From Opitutaceae bacterium (GTDB taxonomy: Bacteria > Verrucomicrobiota > Verrucomicrobiia > Opitutales > Opitutaceae), in NCBI GenBank assembly GCA_028284235.1, contig JANQSC010000022.1, forward strand, positions 1 through 64,000: a stretch of 64,000 nt of DNA, read 5' to 3'. A program made the position numbers and the translations under genes. The notes beneath the pieces were generated by a model. It searched no databases and was not told the origin of the DNA. It saw only the letters and a program-made list of their open reading frames with translations. Shown here piece after piece: positions 1 through 17,021 of this stretch (position 1 is its first letter; each line of letters opens with the position of its first letter).

Positions 1-3000
1 TCGGGCAATGAAAGCGTCACGTCGAACGACACGGCATCCTGTCCCGCTTCGCCTGGATTGCCGTCGTTGTCCTGGTCGAGCAAGCTTCCACCCGGCGTGG
101 CGATGTTGGGACCGACCGAAATGCTGTAAACGCCGTCCGTTCGCTGGACCGCGAAGGCGACGCGGTAGGCATTGCCACCCAAGGCCGTGATGAGTCCCGC
201 CGCGATCGATCCTCCGGGACCGGTGATCGTGACGTCGTCCAATGTGAACGTCGACTCGTCGATGGTTTGGTTGAAAGTGATATCGAAGGAGCTGAACGCG
301 GCAGTGACGGTTCCGCCCGGAGAGGTACTCGTCACCAGCAACGCCACTGTTTCGATATCTATCGTGGAGGCGGAGGTGGCGACATTGTTGTTTCGATTGG
401 TATCCGGAACGACTTCGCCCGAGTCGCTTGAAACGATGATGGTATAGCTGCCGTTGGCGACCGCGGGTACATTGGCCGTGACGCTTCCATTGTACGAAGC
501 GCCGATGGCGAGGTCTCCCGCCCGTACCGATGACCCCAGCAATATGTCGGAACTGTCGAGCACACCGTCGAGCGACAAGTACACCGAATCCGTCCAAGGA
601 CCAGTGGCGGAAGAGCCGCTCAAGTTGGTTACCGTGAACGTAACCGTCGCCGATTCGCCAGGCGCCCGCGACGCGGGGCCGGAGATATTCGAGACCGACA
701 AGTCCGAAGCGGTCGTGATTGAATTCAATACGATCGAAGTCGACCCAATGATACTCGAAAAGAATGGAGCGACGCCGGTCTCGGAAGCGAAACCGCCGAA
801 GCGCGACCCGAATGTCGACACCGTGTAGGTGTCGCCGCTCTGCGGTCCGTATCCATCGACCAAGCTCACGTCGAACACGCCATCGAGCGTAGCCAATCCC
901 GTCACATTCAACTGCCCCTGTCCGTCGTTCGCGGACGAATCTCCAATCTCGATGCCAAGGGTAGCTCCCGCATCCTGAACATAGGCGCCGCCCACATCCA
1001 CCGACCCGCCCGTGCCAATCGTCAGCGTGCCATTGTTGAAAAGGTCTCCCGATCGAGTGAACGTCGCATCGTCCCTCACCGCGAGCGAACCATTGTTTGT
1101 AACCAGATCGTCGAGACCGATAAAGCTGCCCGTTGCGCCTGCGAGAATGAGAATCGCGTCGTTCGTATCGATACTCGTGTTGAAATCGAGCGTGCCGCCA
1201 TTGGCGATCCATGTGCCGCCTGTGAGGGTTCCCGACGTGACTTGGCTGTTCACCGCATTGACGTCAATCGTGCCCGAAAGCGATTCAATGGTGCCGGTAT
1301 TGTCGAGGGCCACTGCAGATCCGCCTCCCGAGAAATTGGTCGTGCCCGAACCTCCTGACTTTCTCAACACACCCGCGTTGTTCACCTGGCCTCGAGATCC
1401 GCTCCACCAGCGAAAGTCTCCGTCTCCTGTAAAATCGATTACGCCCGACGCTTGATTGTCCAATATTCCATTCCCAAAGAAGAGTGAAGCGGTCGCCGCG
1501 TTTATGATCGTTCCCGTGTTAGTCAACTGGCCCTCGAGAAAGCGACTGCTATTCCCGGTCATCGTCAGTTCGCCACTATTTACAATTGGGCCCGCGAGCG
1601 TGCCGCCCGACCATTCCAGCACGCCTTCCGCGAAGTTGAATTCCGGAGTATCGACTCCATTGATACGCCCGCTGTCGAGAAGGACCGTGCCAGCGCCGGT
1701 GCCGGTATAGGTTCCCGAGAACGTATGCGTCGAACCAGCCGTCAAATCCAGTATCGCGTTCGCCGAAACGACGAACGCCCCACCCGCCTGCGCTCCGCCG
1801 CCGCTCAGCGCCAAGGTGCCCATCTGCACTTCGACGACACCCGCAGCGGCATTGTTGAACAACACGCCGGATCCGCCGCCATTCATATTGCTGGTAGCCA
1901 GCCCAGCCGATTTGCGAACCGTTCCCGAATTGTTGAACTGCCCTTGCACTCCGCTCCACCAGCGAACATCGCCATCGCCCGCAAAATCGAAAATGGCTCC
2001 CGACTCGTTGTTCAATACGCCGTTGCCGAAGAAGATGCTGGCAGTCGCCTCGTGGCTGATCTGGCCGCGATTAGTCAGCGTCCCTTCCAAAAATCGGCTG
2101 GAGGTTCCAGAAGACGAGATCGACCCGACATTGACCCAATCTCCCGCCAGCGTACCTCCGGTCCATTCGAACAGCCCGCTCGGAAAGTTGAGTTCGGCGC
2201 CGCTAGCGCCCTCAACCCTTCCGCTGTCCAACAATACCGTGCCACCGCCCGTTCCGACAAATTCGCCGGCAAAGGAATGGGTCGCCCCGCCGGTCAAATC
2301 GAGAACCGCGCCCGCGGACACCGCGAAACTTCCTCCCAAATGAGTTCCCCCGCCGCTCAGCGACAAAATTCCCGATTGGACATCAATCACTCCGTCAGCC
2401 GCGTTGTTGAACAAGACGCCCGAGCCGCCGCCTCGCATATTGCTTTCTCCGGCGCCCGCCGACTTGCGAACCGTGCCCGAGTTGTTCACTTGGCCTTGAG
2501 TGCCGCTCCACCAGCGGAAGTCCCCGTCGTTGGTGAAGTCGATGAGACCGCCCGATTCATTATTGATAATGCCCGAACCGAAAAAGACCGACGACGTCGC
2601 TCCGTGAATAAACGTTCCCGAGTTATTCAATGTACCCTCAAGAAATCGGCTGGAAGATCCAATCGACTGGATAACGCCGGTGTTGGCGATCGTACCCGAC
2701 AAATTGCCACCGGTCCACTCGAGCAAACCCGCGGGGAAATTGAAGACCGTCGACTCGGCCCCGTTGATGCGCCCGCTGTCGATCACGATCATGCCCGCGC
2801 CGGAGCCGGTGAAGGTTCCAGAAAACTCGTGCGTCTGTCCGCCGGTCAAATCGAGGACCGCGCCGCTGGCGACCGTGTAAACGCCGCCCTCGCTCGTTCC
2901 GCCGCCATCGAACGCCAGGGTTCCGGATTGCACGTCGACCACGCCGCTCGCCGCATTGTTGAAAAGAACGCCCGAGCCGCCGCCGCGCATATTGCTTTCC

Positions 3001-4052
3001 CCGTCGCCCGCCGATTTGCGCACCGTGCCCGAGTTGTTGACCTGACCTTGAGCACCGCTCCACCAACGGAAGTCCGCGTCGCTCGCAAAGTCGATCAAGC
3101 CGCCCGATTCGTTGTTCAAAATGGCGCTGAATAAGAAGAGACTCGAAGTTCCCCCATGCGCAAACGTGCCAAAGTTGGAAAACTCGCCCGTCAAGAATTT
3201 CGACGTGCTGCCACTCGTTTGGAAGGTCCCGTTATTCGTCACGTCGGCACCCGAGAAGGTTCCTCCCGTAAACGAAGTCGTTCCGTTCAACACCGTCTCT
3301 CCGGTGATCGTGAAATTCCCGTTCGTAAGCTCCAGCGCTTCGTTGCTGACCAAGTGAGCGACCGTCGCGCTGCCGCGAACCGTTACTGTCACGTTCGTCG
3401 CTCCGCGATCGATGAGCACGCTGTCCGTGGCAGTCGGCGCCACCCCTGTGCTCCAGTTGCTTCCCTCGTCCCAAAAGCCGTCGCTGTCCGACACCCACGA
3501 AATCGTCGCGGCGGGCGGGGCAGCGAAATCCAATACATCCCTCCTGAAATCCAGTCCTCCATCACCTGCGCTCAAGAATGCTTGAGACGCGCCTTCGCTC
3601 ACCGGAGGACCGTTGCCCGCCCTCAAAGTAGTGACTAGTATCGATGTGTAATCGTTGAAATTCTCCACCTCCTCAACCGGTTCGAACGCGTTTTCCGGCG
3701 CTGCGAAAACGCTCGCTTCGACCGCTTTCAATGTCTCCGCGTCGGCCGCTTGGGCGCCTGAATTCGCGCCGTCCTCATCGTTCGATTCCGCGTCTTCCGA
3801 ACGCGTTGCCGGCGCTACAAAATCCGTTTCGCCTGCCTCCGCGGGACCGGATTCAATAGCGTCGAACCCTTCGAAAAGACCCCCGGACTCGAAGCCTTCG
3901 AACACTTCGATCGACTCGCTTTCCGGCGCTTCCCACGCCGTTTCAACCGTCTCGCCCATCAACCCGCTCGCCAAGGATTCCGCCATCGCGGCGTCCGCCG
4001 CGAGCATGATACGCGGCTCCAGAGCTTCTAGTTGAAAGCGGGAAGAACTCAT
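1..4052 (-). CDS. LEPR-XLL giant surface/adhesin-like repeat protein (3' end beyond window)
   Basis: The frame stays open from the ATG at 4052 to the left edge (at least 1350 codons), so the C-terminus is missing. The N-terminus carries LEALEPRIMLAAD (about residues 9-21), the LEPR-XLL signature of giant secreted proteins. There is no hydrophobic Sec signal peptide, and the next 100 residues are acidic and low in complexity. From about residue 270 come four copies of a 184-residue beta-rich module (see the repeat entry). A CARDB-like domain lies at about 1110-1230, with its end near VVPDTNRNNN, and an Ig-like domain at about 1235-1350 contains SFDITFNQTIDESTF. Family knowledge suggests a large exported cell-surface protein; adhesion is an inference. 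It sits 135 bases downstream of the SecA/HlyD/TolC operon on the same strand and is its probable substrate. There is no clear Shine-Dalgarno sequence. Confidence is high for the gene and moderate for export by its neighbours. Confidence 0.88.
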   Translation of the reverse strand, partial: MSSSRFQLEALEPRIMLAADAAMAESLASGLMGETVETAWEAPESESIEVFEGFESGGLFEGFDAIESGPAEAGETDFVAPATRSEDAESNDEDGANSGAQAADAETLKAVEASVFAAPENAFEPVEEVENFNDYTSILVTTLRAGNGPPVSEGASQAFLSAGDGGLDFRRDVLDFAAPPAATISWVSDSDGFWDEGSNWSTGVAPTATDSVLIDRGATNVTVTVRGSATVAHLVSNEALELTNGNFTITGETVLNGTTSFTGGTFSGADVTNNGTFQTSGSTSKFLTGEFSNFGTFAHGGTSSLFLFSAILNNESGGLIDFASDADFRWWSGAQGQVNNSGTVRKSAGDGESNMRGGGSGVLFNNAASGVVDVQSGTLAFDGGGTSEGGVYTVASGAVLDLTGGQTHEFSGTFTGSGAGMIVIDSGRINGAESTVFNFPAGLLEWTGGNLSGTIANTGVIQSIGSSSRFLEGTLNNSGTFIHGATSSVFFGSGIINNESGGLIDFTNDGDFRWWSGTQGQVNNSGTVRKSAGAGESNMRGGGSGVLFNNAADGVIDVQSGILSLSGGGTHLGGSFAVSAGAVLDLTGGATHSFAGEFVGTGGGTVLLDSGRVEGASGAELNFPSGLFEWTGGTLAGDWVNVGSISSSGTSSRFLEGTLTNRGQISHEATASIFFGNGVLNNESGAIFDFAGDGDVRWWSGVQGQFNNSGTVRKSAGLATSNMNGGGSGVLFNNAAAGVVEVQMGTLALSGGGAQAGGAFVVSANAILDLTAGSTHTFSGTYTGTGAGTVLLDSGRINGVDTPEFNFAEGVLEWSGGTLAGPIVNSGELTMTGNSSRFLEGQLTNTGTIINAATASLFFGNGILDNQASGVIDFTGDGDFRWWSGSRGQVNNAGVLRKSGGSGTTNFSGGGSAVALDNTGTIESLSGTIDVNAVNSQVTSGTLTGGTWIANGGTLDFNTSIDTNDAILILAGATGSFIGLDDLVTNNGSLAVRDDATFTRSGDLFNNGTLTIGTGGSVDVGGAYVQDAGATLGIEIGDSSANDGQGQLNVTGLATLDGVFDVSLVDGYGPQSGDTYTVSTFGSRFGGFASETGVAPFFSSIIGSTSIVLNSITTASDLSVSNISGPASRAPGESATVTFTVTNLSGSSATGPWTDSVYLSLDGVLDSSDILLGSSVRAGDLAIGASYNGSVTANVPAVANGSYTIIVSSDSGEVVPDTNRNNNVATSASTIDIETVALLVTSTSPGGTVTAAFSSFDITFNQTIDESTFTLDDVTITGPGGSIAAGLITALGGNAYRVAFAVQRTDGVYSISVGPNIATPGGSLLDQDNDGNPGEAGQDAVSFDVTLSLP
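1300..3240 (-). repeat. Four in-register 552-base tandem modules inside the LEPR-XLL gene
   Basis: The NNESGG-type landmark recurs with its first Asn/Asp codon at 3116, 2564, 2012 and 1460, an exact 552-base (184-residue) period. Each unit contains FRWWSG, a QGQVNNSGTVRKSAG-type stretch, GGGSGVLFNNAA, VLDLT.G.TH.F.G, LLDSGR, a LEW/FEW-TGG turn and SSRFLEG. The fourth unit diverges after its first third. The exact spacing suggests recent duplication or selection on module length. Confidence 0.85.
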
Positions 4053-4127
4053 CAGAGGGGGCAAACGCTAAGCCGAAACGGATTAGCAAGGTTTTTAAAA
4101 ATGGGCCCAGGTGGGGTGTGGAAGCAA

Positions 4128-4148
4128 GTTTTATTCACGTTTTATTCA
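4128..4148 (-). promoter_or_regulatory. Direct repeat upstream of the LEPR-XLL gene
   Basis: The 10-mer gttttattca (plus strand) occurs at 4128-4137 and again at 4139-4148, an 11-base period close to one helical turn. It lies about 76-96 bases before the LEPR-XLL start, in the A/T-rich 135-base gap after the SecA paralogue. It could be an operator or an activator site for separate transcription of the substrate gene. No promoter was assigned with confidence. Confidence 0.35.
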
Positions 4149-4187
4149 TACAACTGGGTGACGAAACATCAGAGAAATTCGAGCGTT

Positions 4188-6179
4188 TCAGGTCCGCTGA
4201 CTGCCGGCGAATCCGAGTGAATCCTCCAACCATTGATCGCTTTGGAGCACCTGCCGACGTTGCCGGAACGCCCGTCTCTGGGCAATTTTCTGAGCCCATT
4301 CCGCGGCGATTCCGAGCATAGCGGGGGCCACTGCAGGGAGCGTTTTGGCGAGCAACCGGATCAAGAACTTGGCCGGAATCGGCAGAAATCGAGCGAACAA
4401 TTCGTCCTCGAAACTGACAAACGCCCGGGCGCTTCCGGCATCCCCTTGCCGTCCGGCGCGGCCGAAAAGTTGACGGTCGATCCGCCCCGCCTCGTGTCGT
4501 TCCGTGGCGATTACGTGCAGTCCGCCAAGCTCCGCCACGCCTTGCTCGAGCCGAATATCCGTCCCTCGTCCCGCCATATTGGTGGCGATCGTGATGGACG
4601 AATGTTTGCCCGCGGCGCTGATAATCAACGCCTCCTCGGAATGTCGCCGCGCGTTCAAAACACGCGCGTTGATCCCCTTTTCCAGCAGCCGGTCGTTGAG
4701 GGCTTCGCTCGCTTCAATGCTCCGCGTACCCACCAAAATCGGACGCCCCGAATCGTGGAGCATCTGGATCTCCTCGACAATCGCTTCCCACTTTTCCTCC
4801 GCGTCCAAGAAGCGTTTTTCCCGTTCGAGCGTACGGGCAACCGGACGATTCGTCGGAATGGCGACAACCGGCAAACGATAGATTTGCCACAGTTCGCCCC
4901 GCGATTCTCGAGCCGTACCCGACATGCCGCTCAGCCGTGGGAACAAGCGAAAAAAGCGCTGGAAACTCATGCGGGCGATCGTCTCGCTCGGGCTGGTGAC
5001 CGCGACTCCCTCGCGCGCTTCGATCGCTTGGTGCAAGCCCTCCCGCCAAGTGCGCTGCGGCATGAGTCGACCCGAAAACTCGTCCACGATGACGACCTCG
5101 CCGTCTTGAACGATGTACTGCTTTTCCCGAAAGAAAAACGACCGCGCTTGCAACGCTTGCTCCACGAGTTCGCGACGCCGATCGGCGCCCCGCCAAAGAG
5201 GCGGCAACGCGTCCGCCAACTCCGAAAGCCGTCGTTCGCCGCGCGGGGTCAAGTCGACCTGCTTGTGACGAGGATCCGCTCGGTAATCCGTTTTCGCGTC
5301 GAGAATTTCCGCGAGCCGGTAGGCTTCGATGCATGCTTGGCGTAGCTCCTCATTGGGCTGTTCGCGGGAAATAATCAACGGCGTCACCGCTTCATCAATG
5401 AGGATGCTATCCGCCTCGTCCACAATCGCGGCGCCCAGCCCGCGCTGCACGACATGCCGCCCTGCCCGGTCCGATCCGGAAAGCTGCCGCAAGGCCAGCC
5501 GGTCCGCGGCGGAGGCCGTTCCCAAGGCGATTCGATCTCTGAGAAAATCCGCCAAAAGCTCCTTGCTCGTAGCGTAGACGACATCGGCCTGATACGCCGC
5601 TCGACGCTCCAAAGGCGACAAGGTCGAAGTCACCGCGGCGACCGACAAGCCCGTCCATTCCGCGATCCGTTGAAACTGCTCCGCATCCCGCTGGGCGAGG
5701 TAGTCATTAACAGTCACTACGTGGCACGGCTTCCCCGACCAACCGGCTAGGACCGCCGCCATGGCCGCCACGATCGTCTTTCCTTCACCCGTCGCCATTT
5801 CTACAAGACAACCGCGATCGAGGCCGAGCACGCCCGCCAGCTGGACGTCGTAGGCTTTCAACCGCCACGCCCGCCAACCCGCTTCGCGTAACGTAGCCAA
5901 CGCTCGGATACGCAATTCCGAACCGACCGATCCGCGCACGCGTCGGTAGGTCATGCGGAGACGCTCCAATTCCACGCGCAGGGCCGCATTGGAAAGCGAC
6001 TCGATTTCCTCCCGCAGATCGTTCGCTTCCCGCGCTTCGTCGAGTAATTCAGCCCGCATTTTCCCCACGCGTTTGAGCTTCCCGCGCAAGGCGTGGTTCA
6101 GTGAATCAAGTCCTTTGGGAAGCTCCTCGGGATCAGGCGAGGCAAGGAGGTCGAGAGCAATCGCGTGTGTCGCATTCAT
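4188..6179 (-). CDS. SecA-like ATPase, C-terminally shortened accessory paralogue
   Basis: This is a SecA-family motor ATPase that would couple ATP hydrolysis to protein movement at the inner membrane. Numbered from the ATG at 6179 (663 aa), Walker A is ATGEGKT (129-135) and the DEAD-like box is VDEAD (253-257). VDEFSGR lies near 365, TNMAGRGTDI at 533-542 and GRAGRQGD near 573. The protein ends soon after the second helicase domain. Housekeeping SecA is usually above 800 aa, so most of the helical wing and scaffold and the zinc-binding tail are absent. An in-frame ATG at 6242 would add 21 residues but overlap the preceding gene by 58 bases. The 6179 start leaves a 5-base gap, like the other junctions of this operon. 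The context (M50-HlyD, GAF-HlyD, HlyD, TolC upstream, LEPR-XLL substrate downstream) argues for a dedicated export motor and not the general translocase. Confidence 0.88.
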   Translation of the reverse strand: MNATHAIALDLLASPDPEELPKGLDSLNHALRGKLKRVGKMRAELLDEAREANDLREEIESLSNAALRVELERLRMTYRRVRGSVGSELRIRALATLREAGWRAWRLKAYDVQLAGVLGLDRGCLVEMATGEGKTIVAAMAAVLAGWSGKPCHVVTVNDYLAQRDAEQFQRIAEWTGLSVAAVTSTLSPLERRAAYQADVVYATSKELLADFLRDRIALGTASAADRLALRQLSGSDRAGRHVVQRGLGAAIVDEADSILIDEAVTPLIISREQPNEELRQACIEAYRLAEILDAKTDYRADPRHKQVDLTPRGERRLSELADALPPLWRGADRRRELVEQALQARSFFFREKQYIVQDGEVVIVDEFSGRLMPQRTWREGLHQAIEAREGVAVTSPSETIARMSFQRFFRLFPRLSGMSGTARESRGELWQIYRLPVVAIPTNRPVARTLEREKRFLDAEEKWEAIVEEIQMLHDSGRPILVGTRSIEASEALNDRLLEKGINARVLNARRHSEEALIISAAGKHSSITIATNMAGRGTDIRLEQGVAELGGLHVIATERHEAGRIDRQLFGRAGRQGDAGSARAFVSFEDELFARFLPIPAKFLIRLLAKTLPAVAPAMLGIAAEWAQKIAQRRAFRQRRQVLQSDQWLEDSLGFAGSQRT

Positions 6180-6184
6180 CGTCT

Positions 6185-8293
6185 CTATACGCTGCTTCGC
6201 TTCTCCGTAAATTCGCGCCAGATTCGCTTGGCCTGAATCCACGCGCTCTCCGCCGGCAACGAGAACCGGATTTGCCCCCTTAACCCGTGCAGCAAGGTCG
6301 CGTCGCCCGACTCCTCGATCGCTCCTTTGAACTCGAACGACGGGGCGGGCTCATCGGGGTTCGCTCCGCCGTCTCGGTTTTCTTCGGACGATTCCGGAGC
6401 CGCTGCGACCAGCGAACGTTCTCCGATCTTGAGACGCGTCCACGGCTGACCATCCAATCGTACAACCGCAGGACTGTCGACTGCGGATACGATTTCGGGA
6501 ACACGACTAACCGGTACTTGAACTTTGAATTCAAACGAATCCGTATCCACCACGTCCCCGATGAGCGAGCCTCTCGAAATCCACGAACCGAGAGAATCCT
6601 CCAACGTGGGAGCCACCCACCATCCCGCGTGAGGAGCAACGACCGTGAGAGCCACTTGCCTCGCTTCAAGTTCCTCGCTCCGTTTTTCAAGCGCCGACAA
6701 ATAGCCCCGCAAGACCGTCTGCGCCGCAGGATCCTCGGCCAGCGCCTTCCGCATTCGCGCCCGAGCCTCCGCGAGCTGGGCTTCAATTTCCTGGATCGCG
6801 ATTTGCAATTCCGGATCCTCCAGCTCCACGAGGGCCTGCCCCTCCTCGATCCGGGCGCCCGGTTCTATTAATAGAGAGACGATGCGTCCTCCCGAGCCAA
6901 CGGTCACCGAGGAAGCGCGCTCCGCTTCGAGCACGCCTTCCACCCGCACCGAATGCGGCAAGGGAAGCAGCCGAATCACAACGCCGAGAAACAAGGCGAT
7001 CCCGACGACCGACGCAATCGCCCGAGAACGCTGCAAATGCAACTTGGGACCGCTCGCGAGGTAGTTGACCAGCTTGCCCATCGGAACCAGCACCCAAGCC
7101 ACAATACAAACCGAGCCCATGATCACTCCGAGCAGGAGAAAGCGGTCCCAAACGAAAAAGAGAATCGAGCCAAAGAGGAAGAAGCGATAAATCGCTCCGG
7201 CAACCCCGTAAATCGCGAACACCCACGCTTCGGTTTTGTCCTCCGCGGGCGAACGCTCCCGCCTCAAGCCGAACAGATAGCGCTCCGCCAAGTAGCGGAG
7301 GAACTTCAAGCTCCTCTGATAGAGATTGGGAATCCCAGACAAATCCGTCAGGATGAAGTACCCGTCGAATCGGAGCAGCGGATTGAGGTTGAAAAGCAGC
7401 GTGGAGACCGATCCCACCAGCATCGCGTTGAAGGCCAAGTCGCTGGTCAGCCCGGGTCCGCTCTTGGCCCACACAATGCCTGCAATAGAGGCGAGGAAGA
7501 CTTCCACGATCATTCCTCCAAAACCGACCGCGAGGCGCTTGCCCCGCTCCCGGAATCCCCAAGCGGAGGTCGTATCCGCAAAGGGCATCGGCGTGAAAAT
7601 CATGAGGAGTATTCCCGCTCGCTTCACTGCGCCGCCGTACTTCTTGCACAGGGCCATGTGGCCGTACTCGTGCAAAGTCTTCATGATCGCGGTTACGAGA
7701 AACAGCCAAGGCAGATTTCCTGGATCGAGTACGCGTCGACTTTGAGCAATCAACTCGTTGGCGGTGCCCACGACCGCGCTCACCCCCCAGACAACCACGA
7801 CAACCCAGAGAATCAGTCCCCAACGACTGAATACCAGATTCGAAAAGGGCTTGATCCGATCGAGGAATGCGTCCGGATTGAAGAGCGGAAATCGAGCGAA
7901 CATCGCCCCGAGGATCTTTGCGGTCGCCTCGCGCTTTTTGCGCTTCTTGTAGCGTTTGAACAACGACGCCGTGTCCGCGGGAACGTCGGCATAGAGCAAA
8001 TTGGATGCGTAAAGTTGCGAAAGCAGCTCCACTACGTCCTGCTGCCCCGGGGCGTCGTCCGGACGTTCCTCCAACACGGTCTGCCACGCAGACGCGACCG
8101 TTCGCTTCGGACCCAGACGCAGCAGAAACGCGTACGCGGCGGGCCGGACGCGGAAGAACTGGTTATTGTACGGATCGTGGAGCAAGTACCAGCGTTCGCC
8201 TCTAAAGTACTGTCGACGCACCCGTACCTGCGGACGCAACTGGACATTCAGTCCAGCAATCCGATGCCACGATTCGCTGAATGTCTTGCCCAT
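6185..8293 (-). CDS. PqqD-like / M50 site-2-protease-like / HlyD fusion membrane protein
   Basis: This 702-aa protein has three parts. Residues about 30-105 resemble PqqD-type peptide-binding domains (WYLLHDPYNNQFFRV onward). Residues about 155-440 are a polytopic membrane region with the M50 zinc site HEYGH (208-212) and the matching NLNPLLRFDG (302-311), whose Asp would be the third zinc ligand. Residues about 445-660 are an HlyD/biotinyl-lipoyl-like adaptor with an alpha-helical hairpin (EIEAQLAEARARMRKAL). The protease motifs look intact, so it may cut or simply bind its client. I infer that it is the inner-membrane platform linking the SecA paralogue to the periplasmic adaptors and TolC. 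It starts 7 bases after the GAF-HlyD gene. The arrangement recurs in Planctomycetes/Verrucomicrobia from memory, but I know of no assigned function. Confidence 0.88.
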   Translation of the reverse strand: MGKTFSESWHRIAGLNVQLRPQVRVRRQYFRGERWYLLHDPYNNQFFRVRPAAYAFLLRLGPKRTVASAWQTVLEERPDDAPGQQDVVELLSQLYASNLLYADVPADTASLFKRYKKRKKREATAKILGAMFARFPLFNPDAFLDRIKPFSNLVFSRWGLILWVVVVVWGVSAVVGTANELIAQSRRVLDPGNLPWLFLVTAIMKTLHEYGHMALCKKYGGAVKRAGILLMIFTPMPFADTTSAWGFRERGKRLAVGFGGMIVEVFLASIAGIVWAKSGPGLTSDLAFNAMLVGSVSTLLFNLNPLLRFDGYFILTDLSGIPNLYQRSLKFLRYLAERYLFGLRRERSPAEDKTEAWVFAIYGVAGAIYRFFLFGSILFFVWDRFLLLGVIMGSVCIVAWVLVPMGKLVNYLASGPKLHLQRSRAIASVVGIALFLGVVIRLLPLPHSVRVEGVLEAERASSVTVGSGGRIVSLLIEPGARIEEGQALVELEDPELQIAIQEIEAQLAEARARMRKALAEDPAAQTVLRGYLSALEKRSEELEARQVALTVVAPHAGWWVAPTLEDSLGSWISRGSLIGDVVDTDSFEFKVQVPVSRVPEIVSAVDSPAVVRLDGQPWTRLKIGERSLVAAAPESSEENRDGGANPDEPAPSFEFKGAIEESGDATLLHGLRGQIRFSLPAESAWIQAKRIWREFTEKRSSV

Positions 8294-8300
8294 CGCGCGT

Positions 8301-10112
8301 TCACCACCACAGCTGCCTCCGCAGCCAATCAGAAGTCGAATGCGTCAAAATCCAACCCGCGTTGCGCCAGCCCACGTCGATCTTCACCGAACCACTCATT
8401 CCAGGCCGCCACCAATCGGGAGCCGCGTCGACACTTCGAGCCCGCAACTGGAAAACCACCCCAGACTGCGTTTGCACGCCGACTGGCTGAATACGCTCAA
8501 TCGACAACTCGAACGCTTCTTCCGGCTGAGCGGCGAACAGCATTCGGGCCCGTTGGGTATCGCTCACCTCATGCGCTTCGCTTTCGGGTACTTCCACATG
8601 TATATACAGATCGTCCAGTCGGGCTTGCTGAAAAAGCACGTCGCCCTTTCGCACCGGAGCGCCGAGCCGTTTTCGCAAATCGCCTTCCACGATCACGCCG
8701 TCAACCGGCGCCTTGATCTCGGATTGTTCAATCTGATATCGCGTTCGCTCCAAAACCGCCGCCGCCTGCTCCAACTGCGCTTCCGCCACCCGCATGTCCG
8801 CCAGAGCGTTGTCAGCGCGAGCGCGCTCCACTTCTTTAGAATAGCGATTCATATTCGCCATCTCCGCAGCTTGTTGGACGAGAAATTCCTGAGTATCAAA
8901 CGCGACAAGTGGAGTCCCCGCATCAACTGTGTCCCCAACTTCGTAATACGCGTCCTGGATAAATCCGTCGAACGGCGCCGTAGCGAAGACCACGTGCCCG
9001 CTTCGCACCACCGCCGGAGCTTCTACCGAATACGGGAGCCGACCAAAAACCAGGAACAAGATCAACGCAGCCGCTCCCACGCCCGCGAGTTTCGGGCCCG
9101 TGTGCTTCGTCCCGAGAAATCGGGACGCGCTCTCCTTCAATCGCCTCCAGAGTCGCGACGGCCACCAGCGATCCCGCTCCCTCAGATCCGCCAACTTCGG
9201 CGCTACCTGATCCGCCATGACACGCAGCAACTCGACTTCCTCCTTCGCGAACGGCGTTTTGCCACGCTCGAGCAAGAATACGCCCCTCGGGCTCCGCTCA
9301 ACTCGCAAAGGGACTGAACAAAGAAAGCCCACCGCCGCGTCGCGGGCGTACTCCCCGTGCTCGCGGACGATCGCGTCCGAGCCTTCCTCTTGCGGGTAAC
9401 GGAGAGTTTCATCCTGATCGAAGGTCTCCTCCATCGCCGCCTCGACCTGACGCACGATCGAGGTCCGCGAATCGAACTTGTCCGCTTGGCTGATCGCTCG
9501 CAGCTTCATCGCTACATCGTCCTGCCACCCAAGACTCACCCGATCGCATTTCATCCGAGCCGCAAGCTCGTTGCACACCGCGAAGGCTCCGGAAGTGAAT
9601 TTCTTTTGGGCGTGAGCTACCAAGGCGATATCCAGCGCCCCCGTCAGCCCCGATAGACGCGACTCCAGTTTTTGCAAAGATCGTTTGGACTGCCAAATCT
9701 CGGGAATCGACCCAAGCAAAGCGATGCGGGTAGTCAATTCTGTATCCGAATACTTGTCACAGTCCGATAGGACAATCACGCCCTCGCCGAGCTCCTCGCT
9801 TCCGATTGAAAACACAACCGTATCTCCGTCCCGACTGATGCCCTCTGCCAACGCTAGATTCAACAATTGAGCGTCGGGCAACGTCGCCCCTCCGGACGGG
9901 TGGGACACCAAAGTTCGCCAGCTTTCCACAGCGACTTCATCCCCTTTCGGAGGTCGCATCACACGAACGCCCAAAGTGGCTCGGGAAGCCGATGCGACCG
10001 CTCGGGCCGTCTTCAAATACAAGGCCCAAAACTCGGGAGGCGAACCGACAAATTCGCGCAACTGAGCGATCAAGGACGCGCCACCGTGGTCTGTATAGAT
10101 CGGTTCGTCCAT
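8301..10112 (-). CDS. GAF-domain / transmembrane / HlyD periplasmic adaptor fusion
   Basis: In this 603-aa protein, residues about 1-140 are an uncharacterised cytoplasmic domain. Residues about 157-310 fit a GAF domain (TSGAFAVCNELAARMKCDRV near the start, VFLLERGKTPFAKEEVELL near the end). A single membrane helix lies at about 342-358 (LAGVGAAALILFLVFG). After it comes an HlyD-type adaptor with paired lipoyl-like halves and a coiled-coil hairpin (EFLVQQAAEMANMNRYSKE onward), ending near 570. GAF domains bind small ligands or mediate dimerisation, so this adaptor could pass a cytoplasmic signal to an envelope channel; that is inference. It begins 4 bases after the small HlyD gene. It lacks obvious kinase or phosphodiesterase domains. 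Confidence 0.87.
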   Translation of the reverse strand: MDEPIYTDHGGASLIAQLREFVGSPPEFWALYLKTARAVASASRATLGVRVMRPPKGDEVAVESWRTLVSHPSGGATLPDAQLLNLALAEGISRDGDTVVFSIGSEELGEGVIVLSDCDKYSDTELTTRIALLGSIPEIWQSKRSLQKLESRLSGLTGALDIALVAHAQKKFTSGAFAVCNELAARMKCDRVSLGWQDDVAMKLRAISQADKFDSRTSIVRQVEAAMEETFDQDETLRYPQEEGSDAIVREHGEYARDAAVGFLCSVPLRVERSPRGVFLLERGKTPFAKEEVELLRVMADQVAPKLADLRERDRWWPSRLWRRLKESASRFLGTKHTGPKLAGVGAAALILFLVFGRLPYSVEAPAVVRSGHVVFATAPFDGFIQDAYYEVGDTVDAGTPLVAFDTQEFLVQQAAEMANMNRYSKEVERARADNALADMRVAEAQLEQAAAVLERTRYQIEQSEIKAPVDGVIVEGDLRKRLGAPVRKGDVLFQQARLDDLYIHVEVPESEAHEVSDTQRARMLFAAQPEEAFELSIERIQPVGVQTQSGVVFQLRARSVDAAPDWWRPGMSGSVKIDVGWRNAGWILTHSTSDWLRRQLWW

Positions 10113-10116
10113 ACAA

Positions 10117-10950
10117 CTACAAACTGTTGGAGAAACCCACCCGAGCCGGCAAGCCAGGCAAGATCCGACCCTCTTCGTTCGGAATTGAAATCTGGATACG
10201 TCTCAAACCACTCGCGCCGTCCACGACCGGAGACACGAAATCGATCACGCCCTCCACTTTCATCTCCCCTCCGGGGGCGTCGATGGCGATGGCGACGGAT
10301 TTACTGGCGACAATCCCGACCGTTTCCAACGCGTCTACATCCAATGCGACTTTCACCGTACGCGCATCTACAATGCGCACCAACGGCTGCCGCGGCTCGC
10401 AAACCTCACCCGCCATAGGGAATATCTCGACGATCGTTCCGTCTTGCGGCGTCTTTATAATCCTTCGGGACACTTGCTCGAGCGCCAGTTTCCATTCCAG
10501 CTCCTCGACTTTCTCTCTCTCCTCGAGTTGCGAGATCTCGGCTTCCGCAAGCTGGTACTCCAGCCGCGTTCGCTCAAGCTCCTCTTTGCTCACCGATCCC
10601 GAAGTCTCAAACAACCGCTTGGTCCCTTCGAACTCCGAGCTGAGCACTTCGAGTTTCGCTCGGGCGAGATCCAACTCTACAGAGCTTTCGGACACAATCC
10701 GGCGGCGTTCCGCATCCAATTCTTCCATACCGCGCTCGAGCGAGACCAGCACGTCCCCGGCCTTGACGCGATCGCCGACCTCGACATCGATGCTCTCGAC
10801 CCGACCCAAGACGGTCGGGGCCAAAGTCGCTTCCCAGAACGGTTCAATCAATCCGGTCGCTTCAAATTCCGCTGCCGCCAGAAACACCGGCGTCGTTAGC
10901 GAAATCGCTAGAAACGACGCCCGCCTGCACATCATCAAAATCAATGTCAC
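10117..10950 (-). CDS. HlyD/RND-type periplasmic adaptor (membrane fusion protein)
   Basis: This 277-aa protein has an N-terminal hydrophobic signal (about residues 1-27, ending FLAAAEFEA). A lipoyl-like half (LGRVESIDVEVGDRVKAGD) is followed by a long heptad-rich hairpin (about 75-165, rich in E, L, K and R), the second lipoyl half (IIKTPQDGTIVEIFPMAGE) and a beta-barrel. Such adaptors bridge inner-membrane transporters to TolC. It is short for the family and lacks a clear membrane-proximal domain. Its ATG overlaps the TolC stop in an ATGA arrangement (10947-10950), so translation is probably coupled. It is the second of three HlyD-type proteins in this operon, yet no RND or ABC pump gene is present. 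Confidence 0.9.
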   Translation of the reverse strand: MTLILMMCRRASFLAISLTTPVFLAAAEFEATGLIEPFWEATLAPTVLGRVESIDVEVGDRVKAGDVLVSLERGMEELDAERRRIVSESSVELDLARAKLEVLSSEFEGTKRLFETSGSVSKEELERTRLEYQLAEAEISQLEEREKVEELEWKLALEQVSRRIIKTPQDGTIVEIFPMAGEVCEPRQPLVRIVDARTVKVALDVDALETVGIVASKSVAIAIDAPGGEMKVEGVIDFVSPVVDGASGLRRIQISIPNEEGRILPGLPARVGFSNSL

Positions 10951-12464
10951 CCCTCCCCGGACCCTTGAGAATCGTCTAAGTCGATTTCAAATCCGCGCGC
11001 TCTCAAATAAGAGCCTTGCTGTACGAGCAACGCCACACGGGCGCGTTGTTGTTCGAGCATGGCGGCAAGGGCCTCCGCGCGGGCTTCAGAAAGATCTTCC
11101 TCGACCTCCAACACTTTGCGAATCTCGCTTTTCCCCGCGCTCAAGTACTCGCGCTCGTTCTCCAGCACGCGCTCGTGAAGGTCCACCACTCGATCCAATG
11201 CCGAGGCGCGTCCCCCCAAACTGGATACCTTTTCTACCAGCACGTGTATCCCATTCATCAGCTCTATTTCTATCGCCGACAGTTCTAGGAGCGCTTGTTG
11301 CTCGCGCATTTTCGCCGCGTTCAACTGGTGTCTTTCGCGTTTGCTATCGAAAATGGGGTACCTCAATTCCAAGCCCGCGTACCAAGAAGGAAACTCGTTG
11401 TTCAACACGCTCTCGTCCAACGTGCCCTTTAGCGTGCCCGCCAATCCATTCAATCCATAGCTCGCCTTTAGATCCAATTGTGGCAATCGTTCGTTCTTGG
11501 CATAGGCCACGCGGATTCCCGCCTGCTCGATTCGCTTGGTTTGAGCGAGATAGGCAGGATGCGATCGGAAACTCTCCGCGAGCGCATCGTAGAGCGCGGG
11601 AGCCGTTTCTTGCAGCTCGAGTTCATCCGTTGGACTCACGCTGCCTGAACTGTCCGCTCGCCTTCCTAGAAAAGCGTCCAGCCGCGAAGCCGCGTCCAAC
11701 TTGGATTGATCGGCATCCGCTTGATTAGAAATGCGCAAGGCGAGGCCTGCTTCCGCTTGCAACACGTCCAGTTCGGTCGCCTTGCCCGCATCGAGACGAG
11801 CTTGCGTGTCTTTGAGAATCACTTCGGCCGTATCCACAGATCCCTTACTCATATCGACGAAAGCAACCGCGGCTGCCAGATCCCAATACGCCATTTCCGC
11901 CTCCGAAAGCACAAGCGCCAATTGGCTCCGGTAGTCCTGGAGGGCGACCTCCGAGTCCGCGGCGGCAATTCGAATCTGACTGGATACCGCCTTCCAGCCA
12001 CGACTCTTGAGCAGTGGCTGCGTCAAGGTCGCTCCCGTGAAGCTCTCCCATTCCCGCCTTCCCGTAACTTGCAAGTTGTTGTCCAGTCCGCGCGCTTGCG
12101 AACCAAGCCGCAGGTTCCCGCCACTCGGCAGCGTCCCTTCAACGGCGGCCGAGTAGATCGTGTTGTGCTCGTCGAATACACTGACGCGCTGGCTCAAAAA
12201 CCGCTCCGTGGAATTCTCCCGATTATTCGCCTCTCGAGCGAGCGTCACGAGCAACACCGGCTCGAAAATAGACCATTCCGCTTTCGACCGCTCCACCGCC
12301 ATTCGGTGGTCCAACTCGCTCGCCTGCAAACGGAGGTTCGCGTCGAGAACGCGGGTTAAAGTCGCTTTCAACGAAAGCTCCTCTTGAGCGTGCAGGGGCA
12401 GCGAAAACGCTGCCACCAGAATCACTAATGCGCTGATTCGCGGGGCATTCACTCCAGTTTTCAC
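10947..12464 (-). CDS. TolC-family outer-membrane efflux/export channel
   Basis: This 505-aa protein has a signal peptide (ALVILVAAFSLPLHAQ, cleavage near residue 27) and two OEP-type repeats of long amphipathic helices (for example DLAAAVAFVDMSKGSVDTAE and ARLDAGKATELDVLQAEAGL). The ELDVLQAEA and EIRKVLEVEEDLSEAR segments are typical of TolC and related channels. It would form the trimeric outer-membrane duct. It is the first gene of the operon TolC - HlyD - GAF-HlyD - M50-HlyD - SecA paralogue, so the promoter is expected in 12465-12722. Confidence 0.92.
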   Translation of the reverse strand: MKTGVNAPRISALVILVAAFSLPLHAQEELSLKATLTRVLDANLRLQASELDHRMAVERSKAEWSIFEPVLLVTLAREANNRENSTERFLSQRVSVFDEHNTIYSAAVEGTLPSGGNLRLGSQARGLDNNLQVTGRREWESFTGATLTQPLLKSRGWKAVSSQIRIAAADSEVALQDYRSQLALVLSEAEMAYWDLAAAVAFVDMSKGSVDTAEVILKDTQARLDAGKATELDVLQAEAGLALRISNQADADQSKLDAASRLDAFLGRRADSSGSVSPTDELELQETAPALYDALAESFRSHPAYLAQTKRIEQAGIRVAYAKNERLPQLDLKASYGLNGLAGTLKGTLDESVLNNEFPSWYAGLELRYPIFDSKRERHQLNAAKMREQQALLELSAIEIELMNGIHVLVEKVSSLGGRASALDRVVDLHERVLENEREYLSAGKSEIRKVLEVEEDLSEARAEALAAMLEQQRARVALLVQQGSYLRARGFEIDLDDSQGSGEG

Positions 12465-13358: not shown

Positions 13359-16304
13359 ATGGAAGTCAGCTGGAGATCGAAGTGCATCAAATGGGTATTG
13401 CGACTTTCCTTCGCCCTGCTCGCGCTTCTTTCGGTTTCTCTCGCCGGACTGTATTTCGCGCGCGTAACGATATCCAACTACATCGTTTCTGAAGTTTTGT
13501 CGGACTTGGGCTTCGACGGTTCCGGTATCGAGATCACCTCTCTTACTAAGGAAAGTCTCAGCGCGCGGAACCTCGTATTCGTTACCGACTCGATGCGGGT
13601 TGAAGTCGGACAGATCGATGTTGGTTTTCGCATTTCCGACATCCAAGAGAATTACAGAGTCGAAGAGGTATCGCTCGAAAGAGTCGCAATACGGTACGAT
13701 TTGAGAGGGCCCTCGACCTTGGATATGGAAGAGCTCGATTCACAAATCAAATCGGGCTTCCCCATCCCGTTTCGCGCCTTGAGCTTGGAGTCGGTTGAGT
13801 GGGAACTTTTGACCGACGCGGGCCCCTTGCGATTCGACGGAGCGCTCGCGCTCGCTGTCAGCGACGAGAACGAACTCAACGGAACGCTCCAAATGGAGTC
13901 CGACATCGAGAAACTGAATTTAGACATTCGCATGAACGACCGAATTCGCTACGATGCTAAAATAGAAATCGCTCGCATCGACGACTCCCTTGCCCGACTC
14001 GACTATGCAATCGAGGATTTTGCCCCCTTGCCCAGCGACGCTCGCGTCGAATTTTCGGGCGGGACCGTGCAAGTCGAAGGGACCTTCTTTGGAATCAGCC
14101 CTGAAAACGCGACGGTCTCAGTCCAACTGGATTCGGTGGACTATGCGGACACCGACGGTGCCGCTAGTATTCAATTAGTCGATGCGTCTACAAACTACGC
14201 GAATGGCAAGATCGAAGACACCCGAATCGAGTTCACCCTGGAGGCGCTTAGAAAAGGACCCTTGGCGCTGCAAACACCTGCTCGAGTCACCCTTGAGTCG
14301 CCGACTCTCCGCGCGGTTTCGGCGTCAATTCCAGAGCTCGAATGGAGTCTCGATTCAGGGGAATCGGGTTCGCTATTCGCCCGACTCGAAGCCCAAATCG
14401 ATGACGCTTACGAGCTCCAGCGATTCACCGCTCGCATCGAATCAAACGAACTCGCTGCGAGCGGCCACGAATTAGCGCCGTTTACAATCCAAGCAAAGGG
14501 GACGAGCGACTCTCTTCAGCTAGAGTTTTCACCCCTTTCGAGCCGCTCGGTTCCGTCGATACGTCTCGAAGAACTATCGCTTAGCATTACCGAATTTCTC
14601 GAAAATGGTCCAAGAATTGAATACGCGGCTCAGTTACATTCAAAACCTGCCTCACCGAATTCCGATTCCGACCTGCCCATCACCGGGAGTTGGCAACTCA
14701 ACGGCGCGTGCGACACGGCGGCTGCGCCAATGACCGCCCAACTGAATTTGTCTTCCGTCTCCGGAACGTCAGTTGCGGCCTTCGAGGGTAGTTCGATAGA
14801 AGGAAACGCAAGCGCGTCTATCGATGCTCGCTATTGGCTGGAGGACCAGGCGATTGGTCTGACGCTCGAGCTCACGGGCGCAGAACTGACTTCCGAGAGC
14901 CAACAGTGGAAGTTAGGGGGAGGCGCTTTGGAAGTGAATGCCTCGCTTTCATCCGCTCAACTCTCCACGCTCGTCGAAGCGAATGAGAACCCGGGCGAAC
15001 TCCTCTCCTACCTCGCTCCGCGAACACGCTACAACATTTCTCTGCAAGGATCCGAGTTATCTCTTCCCGATACGGCGAGCCTAAATTGGATTTCAGGTTC
15101 GCTCCAATCTGTGGATACAGAAATCGGCGACTTCATCAGTCAACCGCTCAACTCCGTCCTTCAATTCGGAGTCGGGATCGTTCGCGTCGGTTCGGAGGAG
15201 ATTCAGCAACTGGCCGTCGAATCATCCTTGTCGGGCGGTCTCGATTCGCTCGTCGCCCAAACAACGGGCCAACTGCTATTCGAAGGGGAAACCGTATCGA
15301 TCGAATCCAGACAGGCGCTCGATTTTTTGGAAACGGGAATGCAATCGAATGGCGAATACAAAGTGTCGGGTATTCGACTAGTCAATTCAGATCTCCTCTC
15401 CAGGCATGTGGAAAGTCTGACAGGATCCGTTTTGAGCGGCGAGATCGGGTTCGGTGGCAAATTGGAGCTTGCCGATCGATGGGACGCCAGTGTTGCCGCT
15501 CAACTCCGCCAGGGGTCGCTGGTTTTGCCCTATCAGGATCTCACCGTAGACGCGATCGAATCGGACTTTGAACTCGCGTCGATCGCGAGTCAGACCACTC
15601 CCGGCGCCCAGTCGATCAAAGCAGGCAAAGTCGCTCTAGGCGACTTAACGGCTGTCGATTTCCTCGCCAAAATCGCCCTGCCCCGTTCCGGCCAACTGGC
15701 CGTCGAGCACGCTCAGCTATCGACTTTCGACGGACTTGTATCCATCGACCCCTTCGCGTTCGAACTGGAAAAACCCGATGCGAAGATGGTCGTGCGGTTC
15801 GACGGGATTTCCATCGCCCCCGCCATCGCCATGCTGGACTTTTTCGATGGCGAAGTCCAAGGCCGGCTCAACGGAAGCCTGCCGATCAACCTCGAGAATG
15901 GCTATCCCGTTCTCGGCGAAGGCTATCTCGAGCTCGACCCGAGCACCGAAGCCACCTTTTCATACAACGCCCGCGGCTATTTCACTGGCGAGGACGAAGC
16001 TGTCCCGAGCAAGAAAACTCTCGGCGACAAACTGCTTGAGAAACTCGGCCTTGAACCCAACGCGCTTCTCGAGGACGCCCTCGGCGACTTGGATATTCAG
16101 GACATGCGACTGGATCTGTTCAGCAGGGACCTCCCGGAAACCCCCATGCGCATTCAAATGTCTGGAACCGCCAACGCAGGCGAGACGGAGATTCCGCTGC
16201 ATATTACCACGAATGTAAATGGCACGGTCGCCGAGCTGCTCAATTTCCTCACTCGCCTCGATTCGCTCGGCGTGGCGGCCGCTAATCAAATCTCAAACCG
16301 CTGA
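13359..16304 (+). CDS. ydbH: YdbH-family AsmA-like envelope protein (intermembrane lipid transport)
   Basis: This 981-aa protein has one N-terminal membrane anchor (residues about 11-34, LRLSFALLALLSVSLAGLYF). It then has a very long beta-rich periplasmic region with alternating polar and hydrophobic residues, as in AsmA/TamB-like bridge proteins. The C-terminal third (LSTFDGLVSIDPFAFEL, FFDGEVQGRLNGSLPINLEN) matches YdbH-type proteins. In E. coli YdbH works with lipoprotein YnbE and periplasmic YdbL in phospholipid movement to the outer membrane, redundantly with TamB. The identification rests mainly on the two following genes, which match YnbE and YdbL in order, size and motifs. The length exceeds that of E. 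coli YdbH. Confidence 0.8.
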   Translation: MEVSWRSKCIKWVLRLSFALLALLSVSLAGLYFARVTISNYIVSEVLSDLGFDGSGIEITSLTKESLSARNLVFVTDSMRVEVGQIDVGFRISDIQENYRVEEVSLERVAIRYDLRGPSTLDMEELDSQIKSGFPIPFRALSLESVEWELLTDAGPLRFDGALALAVSDENELNGTLQMESDIEKLNLDIRMNDRIRYDAKIEIARIDDSLARLDYAIEDFAPLPSDARVEFSGGTVQVEGTFFGISPENATVSVQLDSVDYADTDGAASIQLVDASTNYANGKIEDTRIEFTLEALRKGPLALQTPARVTLESPTLRAVSASIPELEWSLDSGESGSLFARLEAQIDDAYELQRFTARIESNELAASGHELAPFTIQAKGTSDSLQLEFSPLSSRSVPSIRLEELSLSITEFLENGPRIEYAAQLHSKPASPNSDSDLPITGSWQLNGACDTAAAPMTAQLNLSSVSGTSVAAFEGSSIEGNASASIDARYWLEDQAIGLTLELTGAELTSESQQWKLGGGALEVNASLSSAQLSTLVEANENPGELLSYLAPRTRYNISLQGSELSLPDTASLNWISGSLQSVDTEIGDFISQPLNSVLQFGVGIVRVGSEEIQQLAVESSLSGGLDSLVAQTTGQLLFEGETVSIESRQALDFLETGMQSNGEYKVSGIRLVNSDLLSRHVESLTGSVLSGEIGFGGKLELADRWDASVAAQLRQGSLVLPYQDLTVDAIESDFELASIASQTTPGAQSIKAGKVALGDLTAVDFLAKIALPRSGQLAVEHAQLSTFDGLVSIDPFAFELEKPDAKMVVRFDGISIAPAIAMLDFFDGEVQGRLNGSLPINLENGYPVLGEGYLELDPSTEATFSYNARGYFTGEDEAVPSKKTLGDKLLEKLGLEPNALLEDALGDLDIQDMRLDLFSRDLPETPMRIQMSGTANAGETEIPLHITTNVNGTVAELLNFLTRLDSLGVAAANQISNR

Positions 16305-16402
16305 TCTCGCGCAATTCGCCTCGTATTCCCAGTCTCCACGCTCCATTGTCGGAAAAATAGCGGTGAATTTCTTCTACACACGTATCGTCCTATAGCCGAA
16401 TC

Positions 16403-16612
16403 ATGAAACCTCAATTCCATACGCTCGCGAAACGCGCCTTGATCGCACCCTCAATTCTCGCCCTAACCGGATGCATCAGCGTCAAGACCCACAGCTCGTT
16501 CGAGCCGATCTACATGACTCTCGACGTGAACCTCAAAGTAGAACTCCAGCAGGAGCTTTCCGACGTGTTCGGCGACATCGACGCCGCTTCGAGCTCCCTC
16601 TCCGATTCCTAG
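16403..16612 (+). CDS. ynbE: YnbE-like small outer-membrane lipoprotein
   Basis: This 69-aa protein has a lipobox ending LTGC (Cys near residue 24), so it is a predicted lipoprotein. The mature part, EPIYMTLDVNLKVELQQEL, resembles the YnbE segment that is rich in beta-strand residues (N-V-K-I/V-E pattern). In E. coli YnbE sits in the outer membrane and continues the beta-groove of YdbH. It lies 98 bases after ydbH and 22 bases before ydbL, as expected for the ydbH-ynbE-ydbL operon. Confidence 0.8.
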   Translation: MKPQFHTLAKRALIAPSILALTGCISVKTHSSFEPIYMTLDVNLKVELQQELSDVFGDIDAASSSLSDS

Positions 16613-16634
16613 AAAACCCAATTTACTCAATCCG

Positions 16635-17021
16635 ATGAAAACAACCAATTGGACACTCATTCTTTCCTTCGCGATCCTCGCTTTCGGGCTTTCGACCGAA
16701 AGCGCCTTCGCCCAAAACGACGAGCAATCCGTCAAGCAGCGGCTGCTGGAACGCGTCGGCGCCGTAGACGCCCTTAAAATCAGCGGAGCCGTTGGTGAAA
16801 ACAACAAGGGCTACCTGGAACAACGCGCCAATCTCAACCCGGCTCAAACCAAGACCATGAACGAGGAAAATGCCGATCGCAGAACGCTCTACACGATCCT
16901 CGCCAAGCGGTTGGGATTGTCGGTCGCCGTTGTCGGGCAAGGACGAGCCGAGTCCATTAGGAAAAAGTCCGCATCGAACGTCTGGATACAAGACCCATCC
17001 GGAAATTGGTCTAAGAAATAG
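16635..17021 (+). CDS. ydbL: YdbL family protein (DUF1318), periplasmic
   Basis: This 128-aa protein has a signal peptide (residues about 1-25, ending SAFAQ) and the DUF1318/YdbL pattern: GAVGENNKGYLE, then NEENADRRTLYTILAKRLGL, then a C-terminal WIQDPSGNWSKK that parallels the GINGQW ending of E. coli YdbL. YdbL modulates the YdbH-YnbE interaction in E. coli. It is the third gene of the operon, convergent with the SCO gene that ends 11 bases downstream. Confidence 0.85.
   Translation: MKTTNWTLILSFAILAFGLSTESAFAQNDEQSVKQRLLERVGAVDALKISGAVGENNKGYLEQRANLNPAQTKTMNEENADRRTLYTILAKRLGLSVAVVGQGRAESIRKKSASNVWIQDPSGNWSKK

Follow-up and report, generated by a model that had tools for sequence, protein, structure and literature searches.

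How might a very large protein leave a bacterial cell when HlyD-type adaptors, a TolC-type channel and a shortened SecA are encoded beside it, and no ATP-binding cassette (ABC) or resistance-nodulation-division (RND) transporter is? This question is raised by the beginning of a stretch of contig JANQSC010000022.1 from an Opitutaceae bacterium (positions 1 to 64,000, hereafter the window). As a preliminary description had stated, six minus-strand open reading frames (ORFs) stand there in a row, from a TolC channel to an LEPR-XLL repeat protein, and the ORF list together with Pfam and NCBIfam scans confirmed all six and their domains. We conclude that the LEPR-XLL giant proteins are very probably the cargo of a module formed by the short SecA and an M50-HlyD fusion protein. 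With moderate confidence, we further favour a dedicated export system, with SecA as its motor, for giant proteins that carry a short N-terminal leader.

Layout of the gene cluster

The genes and the elements within them are as follows (aa, amino acids).

10947..12464, minus strand: TolC/OEP outer-membrane channel, 505 aa (ORF; Pfam OEP, E value 2.4e-35)
10117..10950, minus strand: HlyD adaptor, 277 aa (ORF; HlyD_D23, E value 3.4e-16; RND_mfp above cut-off)
8301..10112, minus strand: GAF-HlyD adaptor, 603 aa (GAF at about residues 178-304, HlyD at 377-571)
6185..8293, minus strand: PqqD-M50-HlyD fusion, 702 aa (profile scans, alignments, structure model)
7988..8245, minus strand: PqqD-like N-terminal domain of the fusion, residues 17-102 (weak Pfam PqqD; in the model, strands followed by three helices)
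7658..7672, minus strand: M50 zinc motif HEYGH, residues 208-212 (His208, Glu209 and His212 invariant among 22 and among 52 aligned proteins)
7361..7384, minus strand: M50 second motif NPLLRFDG, residues 304-311 (Asn304, Pro305 and Asp310 invariant among 52 aligned proteins)
4188..6242, minus strand: short SecA paralogue, 684 aa, or 663 aa from the ATG at 6179 (domain scans, alignments, model)
5775..5789, minus strand: SecA Walker A motif GEGKT, residues 152-156 (Gly152, Gly154 and Lys155 invariant, the others nearly so)
5409..5420, minus strand: SecA DEAD motif, residues 275-278 (Asp275, Glu276 and Asp278 invariant)
1..4064 (ORF 3-4064), minus strand: LEPR-XLL repeat protein, incomplete, with CARDB at 1120-1230; proposed cargo (ORF; NF012209)
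3984..4037, minus strand: LEPR-XLL leader match (NF012209, 29.2 bits, E value 6.7e-6)

The first five genes were as tightly spaced as had been described. Starting from the TolC end, a 4-base overlap was followed by gaps of 4 and 7 bases, and the M50-HlyD and SecA genes were 5 bases apart when the ATG at 6179 was taken as the SecA start, or overlapped by 58 bases with the GTG at 6242. The LEPR-XLL gene lies 123 or 135 bases beyond SecA, depending on the choice of its start, and is incomplete, with about 1350 aa visible, because the contig (110,771 bases) begins at window position 1. A sigma-70 scan returned 0 promoter-like sites, against 2.2 in shuffled sequences, and a terminator scan 15 sites, against 10.7 (standard deviation 3.1); both were uninformative, so the operon assignment rests on gene spacing. 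In agreement with the preliminary description, no ABC or RND gene was found among the six cluster genes and the two upstream genes scanned, and ordinary ABC-type or RND-type export from the cluster was rejected since none of the six is such a gene. The source genome carries one canonical and one short SecA, as well as a single LEPR-XLL gene above the cut-off. Because the same set of genes recurs across many phyla, it is far beyond what chance would produce.

Co-occurrence of short SecA, M50-HlyD and LEPR-XLL

Across the 288 genomes searched from the window's phylum, short SecA (E value 1e-130) and M50-HlyD above 300 bits, a cut chosen after the scores were seen, were detected in the identical 19 genomes; an M50 match at 1e-10 was present in 62. 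With the short-SecA query, canonical SecA scored at most 287 bits, as compared with 518-642 bits for the short forms (genomes G303, G313 and G342). LEPR-XLL was found in 29 of the 288 genomes at an E value of 0.05, where the short model yields chance matches, and in 20 at 0.001, both sets including 18 of the 19 SecA genomes. At 0.05 this amounts to 18 of 19 SecA genomes versus 11 of the 269 others. In two of these 11 (G189 and G217) a short SecA and an M50 of more distant kind are present, the SecA lying below the cut-off, and the remaining nine have open frames of just 138-848 residues. As a control, 14 known genomes were searched with the LEPR-XLL model, which matched one at 0.05 (Deinobacterium chartae) and none at 0.001.

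The association was also observed in two other groups. In the class of the planctomycete G362 (198 genomes, with the canonical-like SecA rows G366 and G402 moved to the negative side), 64 genomes carried both SecA and LEPR-XLL, 35 SecA only, 13 LEPR-XLL only and 86 neither, that is, LEPR-XLL occurred in 64 of 99 SecA genomes as compared with 13 of 99 others. In the family of G332, a Rubrivivax metagenome-assembled genome, a single-query SecA cut-off of 1e-110 divided 299 genomes into 28 with both, 1 with SecA only, 16 with LEPR-XLL only and 254 with neither (28 of 29 SecA genomes versus 16 of 270 others). When the neighbourhoods of ten of the 16 exceptions were checked, six had a SecA profile match beside LEPR-XLL, which the single-query cut-off had overlooked; in one of them (G733) the match was partial, at 269 bits. 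In G684 and G843 an M50-HlyD gene and a D-type leader were present and the stretch contained no SecA; G828 had a D-type leader, its fetched neighbourhood containing no M50; and the tenth, G715, was not classified either way. With SecA beside LEPR-XLL in six of the ten, these exceptions were rejected as a disproof of the link.

In each of four genera from the window's order, a genome had either all three genes or none of them, the genomes with and without them being G000 versus G223; G274 versus G075, G122 and G155; G140 versus G085 and G260; and G039 versus G048 and G108.

Linkage and distribution across phyla

In the G332 family, 21 of the 26 LEPR-XLL genes on SecA-bearing contigs lay within 10 kb of SecA. 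In the window's phylum this was the case for 13 of 21 same-contig genes, with 13 more on other contigs. Among the phylum's single-contig genomes, 6 of 13 LEPR-XLL genes were near SecA (10 kb), against 0.22 expected at random. The linkage and the joint presence or absence predicted for a dedicated LEPR-XLL route were thus both found, the latter also within the four genera. The other LEPR-XLL genes were scattered, up to 696 kb from SecA, as for a system with several cargoes. The planctomycete G362 (L180) has 32 LEPR-XLL matches at an E value of 0.05 and 13 at 0.001; there, one exporter may serve many cargoes.

A shared lifestyle could lie behind this linkage, with the module processing LEPR-XLL giants that another system exports, or handling something else and being co-selected. 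Some LEPR-XLL genes are indeed distant from the module (by 150-696 kb in G018), and some genomes hold one without the other, but the two are adjacent in unrelated phyla, come and go together within genera, and have a leader-protease-like M50 protein as their constant partner. We regard this explanation as very improbable.

The module was then followed beyond these groups in the best 80 of at least 591 loci, ranked by likeness to the window's M50 protein (78 genomes), which cover Verrucomicrobia, Lentisphaerae, Kiritimatiellae, Phycisphaerae, Thermodesulfovibrionia, Elusimicrobia, Spirochaetales, Fibrobacter and several Proteobacteria. SecA was present at 70 of the 80 loci, some copies being partial at contig ends. 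Six of the ten loci without it end within 300 bases of M50, and eight belong to genomes that carry a short SecA at another place; in the genomes of the other two (G290 and G358) no short SecA was found. LEPR-XLL was detected in 66 of the 78 genomes (33/40 and 33/38).

The LEPR-XLL leader

The leader that had been assigned to the substrate candidate was confirmed, NF012209 scoring 24 bits on the ORF against a cut-off of 17, with the motif at the N terminus. Tandem Repeats Finder detected no DNA repeats in the giant gene, and LEPR-XLL open frames reach 20,466 residues. The leader often begins with a basic stretch, followed by E-x-L-E-x-R, three hydrophobic residues, S, and A or G. Among 29 leaders that passed a frame-length and start filter out of 90 loci, with L, E and R of the motif fixed by the search pattern, E stood two residues before the motif in 26 and F five before in 16, position 8 was S in 23, and the next residue was A or G in all 29; D followed in 16 and then P in 17. 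Peak hydropathy, a crude substitute for a signal-peptide predictor, was 1.11 for the window's leader and 1.38 in the median for 33 S-type leaders, as compared with 2.68 for the window's TolC, 1.97 for its HlyD and a median of 2.06 for 38 homologues, whose ranges overlap those of the leaders.

The short SecA

The short SecA has the SecA_DEAD, cross-linking and P-loop domains and gave no wing-scaffold match. Its motor motifs, namely Walker A, the DEAD box and the helicase-type domains, are kept in the alignments and in the structure model (predicted local distance difference test, pLDDT, 90.6). The protein aligned to residues 23-604 of the 802-residue Bacillus subtilis SecA construct (1m6n) and, by both alignment and model, ends after the first scaffold helix. 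This end point is common to its relatives: all 23 short forms in alignment A2 end within 43 residues of one column, past which canonical SecA runs on for 262, and none of the 46 in alignment A4 extends more than 10 residues beyond the end of the window's SecA. With the SecA domain boundaries that we assume in naming the missing parts, the truncation takes away the wing and the tail as well as what remains of the scaffold, including the two-helix finger. The score with the canonical SecA model TIGR00963 was 589.6 bits (cut-off 800), and four NCBIfam SecA2 models gave 399-515 bits (cut-offs 725-1100), so that the protein falls outside both definitions. Since the finger is missing, the short SecA cannot operate exactly like normal SecA; a motor role is plausible.

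Two further observations concern these genes. Two or three short SecA genes are present in some genomes (G091 and G332), hinting at parallel machines. In the G362 class, 16 of about 110 SecA matches were listed with one in-frame stop (TGA, TAG or TAA), which may fall outside the gene.

Alternatively, the short SecA could work with ordinary SecYEG, as SecA2 does in some Gram-positive bacteria, the giant entering the periplasm via SecYEG and HlyD-TolC acting afterwards. According to the available part of a study of Escherichia coli SecA-N68, this form without the C-terminal helical domains is active as an ATPase and binds signal peptides and, with high affinity, SecYEG (PMC5603524), and the accessible text of Kamneva, Poudel and Ward (2015) describes a SecA clade, discussed below, as related to actinobacterial SecA2 (PMC4452313). 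However, the hydrophobic core of the LEPR-XLL leaders is weaker than that of the TolC and HlyD signals, with overlapping ranges, and the partner conserved with the short SecA is M50-HlyD. We therefore consider a route through SecYEG unlikely.

The M50-HlyD protein

The zinc-site residues were invariant in 52 aligned M50-HlyD proteins, and in the window both HExxH and the second motif are intact. The model for the daptide protease matched all 52, the window's protein included, and that for YydH/LiaK matched 50, the window scoring below both equivalog cut-offs (165 bits against 300 and 19 against 225). A PqqD match at an E value of 0.01 was obtained in 20 of the 52, again with the window among them, the best at 6.8e-8; the PqqD-like domain had no sequence match in the PDB. 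The structure model (pLDDT 86.2) showed an N-terminal domain of strands and then three helices, helices of membrane-spanning length, and an adaptor part with a helical hairpin (residues 494-547). A Foldseek search with this model returned adaptors of the MexA, MacA and AcrA type, and only adaptors among the matches listed, which is no evidence for or against the PqqD or M50 part. The whole M50 profile matched mainly adaptors and biotin-carrier chains in the PDB, with the zinc metalloprotease MJ0392 at 0.053.

Judged by these profile matches, the protein resembles the leader proteases of ribosomally synthesized and post-translationally modified peptides (RiPPs), with a PqqD-like domain in front. 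In the available part of a review, the M50 protease EpeP is thought to both cleave and export its peptide (PMC10885120), which makes it the best precedent for a single protein that both handles a leader and forms a conduit. The proposal that the PqqD-like or M50 part recognizes the leader thus gains indirect support, from the 20 PqqD matches, the RiPP-protease models and EpeP, and such recognition may be envisaged as the first step of export.

Proposed route of export

The route that we infer for binding and cleavage of the leader, for the topology of the complex and for export itself would comprise four steps. The PqqD-like domain of M50-HlyD, taken as cytoplasmic, would bind the leader. The M50 core would then draw the leader into the inner membrane and cut it. 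The short SecA, as a clamp and ATPase without a finger, would hold the unfolded chain and push it forward, acting as the motor. Finally, the HlyD parts of the three proteins would bridge the inner membrane to TolC, through which the chain would exit the cell. The GAF domain may serve as a ligand sensor.

Several observations weigh against this route or against the link to the cargo. The association counts take account of kinship in the genus contrasts and ignore it otherwise. LEPR-XLL had no match in G086, the sole such genome among the 19 with SecA and M50 in the phylum, nor in 35 of the 99 SecA genomes of the G362 class or in 12 of the 78 genomes of the 80-locus scan. Same-contig LEPR-XLL genes of the phylum lay more than 10 kb from SecA in 8 of 21 cases. 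TolC was present at 41 of the 80 loci, including one of 22 planctomycete loci, and the window's own Pfam PqqD match is weak (E value 0.0079, 17.0 bits against a cut-off of 23.4). According to the part of the study available, E. coli SecA-N68 is unable to catalyse translocation (PMC5603524), a parallel suggesting that the short SecA needs a partner supplying the missing part, or is an accessory. Finally, other M50-HlyD loci of the window's phylum and the G332 family have no SecA nearby.

The SecA-less sister branch

Several of these SecA-less loci adjoin proteins that start with MYQLEERILFDG or carry LEPRILLDAA. Leader proteins of the LExR-ILF-DG/DA or LLDAA kind were found at L093, L094, L095, L098, L100, L251 and L258, the last consisting of a leader protein (1660 aa), OEP, two HlyD proteins and M50-HlyD, with no ATPase among them; for most SecA-less M50 loci, the sequence fetched contained no leader protein. 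When five M50 proteins from SecA-less loci were scanned, all five matched the daptide model and three the YydH/LiaK model. SecA is thus not part of every such system.

In a tree of 144 M50 proteins, built with FastTree only, 102 SecA-linked and 31 SecA-less proteins were split by a single change with a branch support of 97; this leaves out 11 rows of unknown state, and the number rises to 12 changes if these are counted as a third state. Six rows (L081, L087, L109, L119, L155 and L157) were scored SecA-positive from elsewhere in the genome, and SecA-less here means no profile match at the locus, which can mislead (L087), the whole-genome search having a strict cut-off. On the SecA-linked side, SecA was found at the locus or in the genome for every locus of known state. 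The split suggests that an older M50-HlyD leader exporter gained SecA once, or that a SecA system lost it once, gain and loss being indistinguishable in a midpoint-rooted tree in which two long branches meet (L095 and L102).

The leaders differed along the same line. Position 8 was D at none of 26 SecA loci as compared with 6 of 7 SecA-less loci, L250 and L251 (one genome) being counted as one and L094 and L095 as two loci of G006. Not counted were L100 (D) and L129 (S), at both of which the contig stops next to M50, and L150, which shares its genome with L074; a stricter pattern missed L149 (S, SecA present). The statistics of this contrast ignore kinship. The exception is L091, a SecA-less M50 locus where a 484-residue protein (15391-16842, plus strand) carries LETRTLLAG near its start. 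At the genome level, LLLD leaders also occur in G339, in which a short SecA was found, and in G358, in which none was found, so the leader rule is not absolute.

These loci bear on a second alternative, in which the M50-HlyD-TolC complex would by itself both export the giants and cut their leaders. The short SecA would then have an accessory role, as a cytosolic chaperone or clamp that keeps giants unfolded or as an aid in handling very long cargo, rather than being the main motor. The sister branch has the same domain order and related leaders, the L258 operon lacks an ATPase, the finger is missing from the short SecA, and EpeP offers, in the review text available, the precedent of an M50 protein for both cleavage and export (PMC10885120). 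On the other hand, the ATPase motifs of the short SecA are kept, and the SecA-linked side of the tree is SecA-positive wherever the state is known, as would be expected of an important role; among the loci left out as unknown, no SecA turned up in G290 and G358. Moreover, an exporter without SecA has no known energy source, and the absence of SecA from the sister loci was judged from neighbourhoods and a strict whole-genome cut-off. We consider an accessory SecA rather unlikely, and retain the route with SecA as motor. The earlier claim that the system is SecA-powered is qualified by the sister branch and the absent two-helix finger, a motor role being plausible.

A broader possibility, which we put forward tentatively and with some doubt, is that of a distinct secretion class. 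A RiPP-type M50 leader protease fused to HlyD would serve as an inner-membrane translocon for giants, and a leader code would sort the cargo, LExR-xLL-S-A/G to the SecA machine and LExR-xLF-D-G/A to a SecA-less machine. If so, SecA would drive export without SecYEG, and we know of no other case of this.

The module offers a testable case of SecA acting away from SecYEG, for which the SecA-less sister branch provides a natural control for the contribution of SecA. It also offers a possible exit route for very large proteins in Verrucomicrobia, Planctomycetes and Proteobacteria.

Other genes of the window

Upstream of the cluster, 13359-16304 (plus strand) encodes a 981-residue protein without a Pfam family at 1e-5. 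On the minus strand, a YHYH-domain protein adjoins an SCO1/SenC protein (18238-19269 and 17032-18036), and 33518-37534 combines sensor (Y_Y_Y), histidine kinase, response regulator and AraC-type DNA-binding domains in one protein.

Comparison with known systems

The composition of the cluster had been thought to be without a known precedent, which does not hold, as the module was described by Kamneva et al. in 2015 (PMC4452313). The accessible text of that account reports secondary SecA_DEAD proteins in which most of the wing-scaffold domain is missing and whose genes stand next to those for M50-HlyD, GAF-HlyD, HlyD and sometimes OEP, with no ABC transporter, in Planctomycetes, Verrucomicrobia, Proteobacteria (Methylobacterium extorquens AM1 being one carrier of the operon), Nitrospirae and Chlorobi; SecA was proposed to be the ATPase and M50 the membrane pore, the broader role being "completely unknown" (PMC4452313). 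The window agrees with it in having a short SecA without a SecA_SW match, M50-HlyD, GAF-HlyD and no ABC gene in the locus, and differs in its proposed cargo, since the same text names no substrate or leader (PMC4452313). The PqqD part, the kinship with RiPP proteases, the SecA-less sister branch and the cargo link are added here, so that a SecA-containing module described without cargo is now assigned a likely one, with a leader sequence that can be mutated. No link of LEPR-XLL to SecA or M50-HlyD was found in searches of the open-licence PubMed Central literature, in which the two papers containing the term refer to it only briefly.

The M50 core matches the NCBIfam models of both EpeP, which we take to be YydH, and the daptide HExxH protease, and would share with them leader removal and, as proposed for EpeP, export. 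In contrast to both, it scores below the equivalog cut-offs. EpeP and the daptide protease are not known to have HlyD, TolC or SecA partners, and what they handle is a small peptide. Type I secretion and tripartite efflux resemble the cluster in their HlyD/MexA-type adaptors and TolC-type channel, whereas no ABC, RND or major facilitator superfamily transporter is among the six genes and the proposed cargo has an N-terminal leader; the type I signal is usually C-terminal. As in accessory-Sec systems with SecA2, the source genome has a second SecA beside the canonical one, but the window's SecA lacks everything after the first scaffold helix and has M50-HlyD as its partner.

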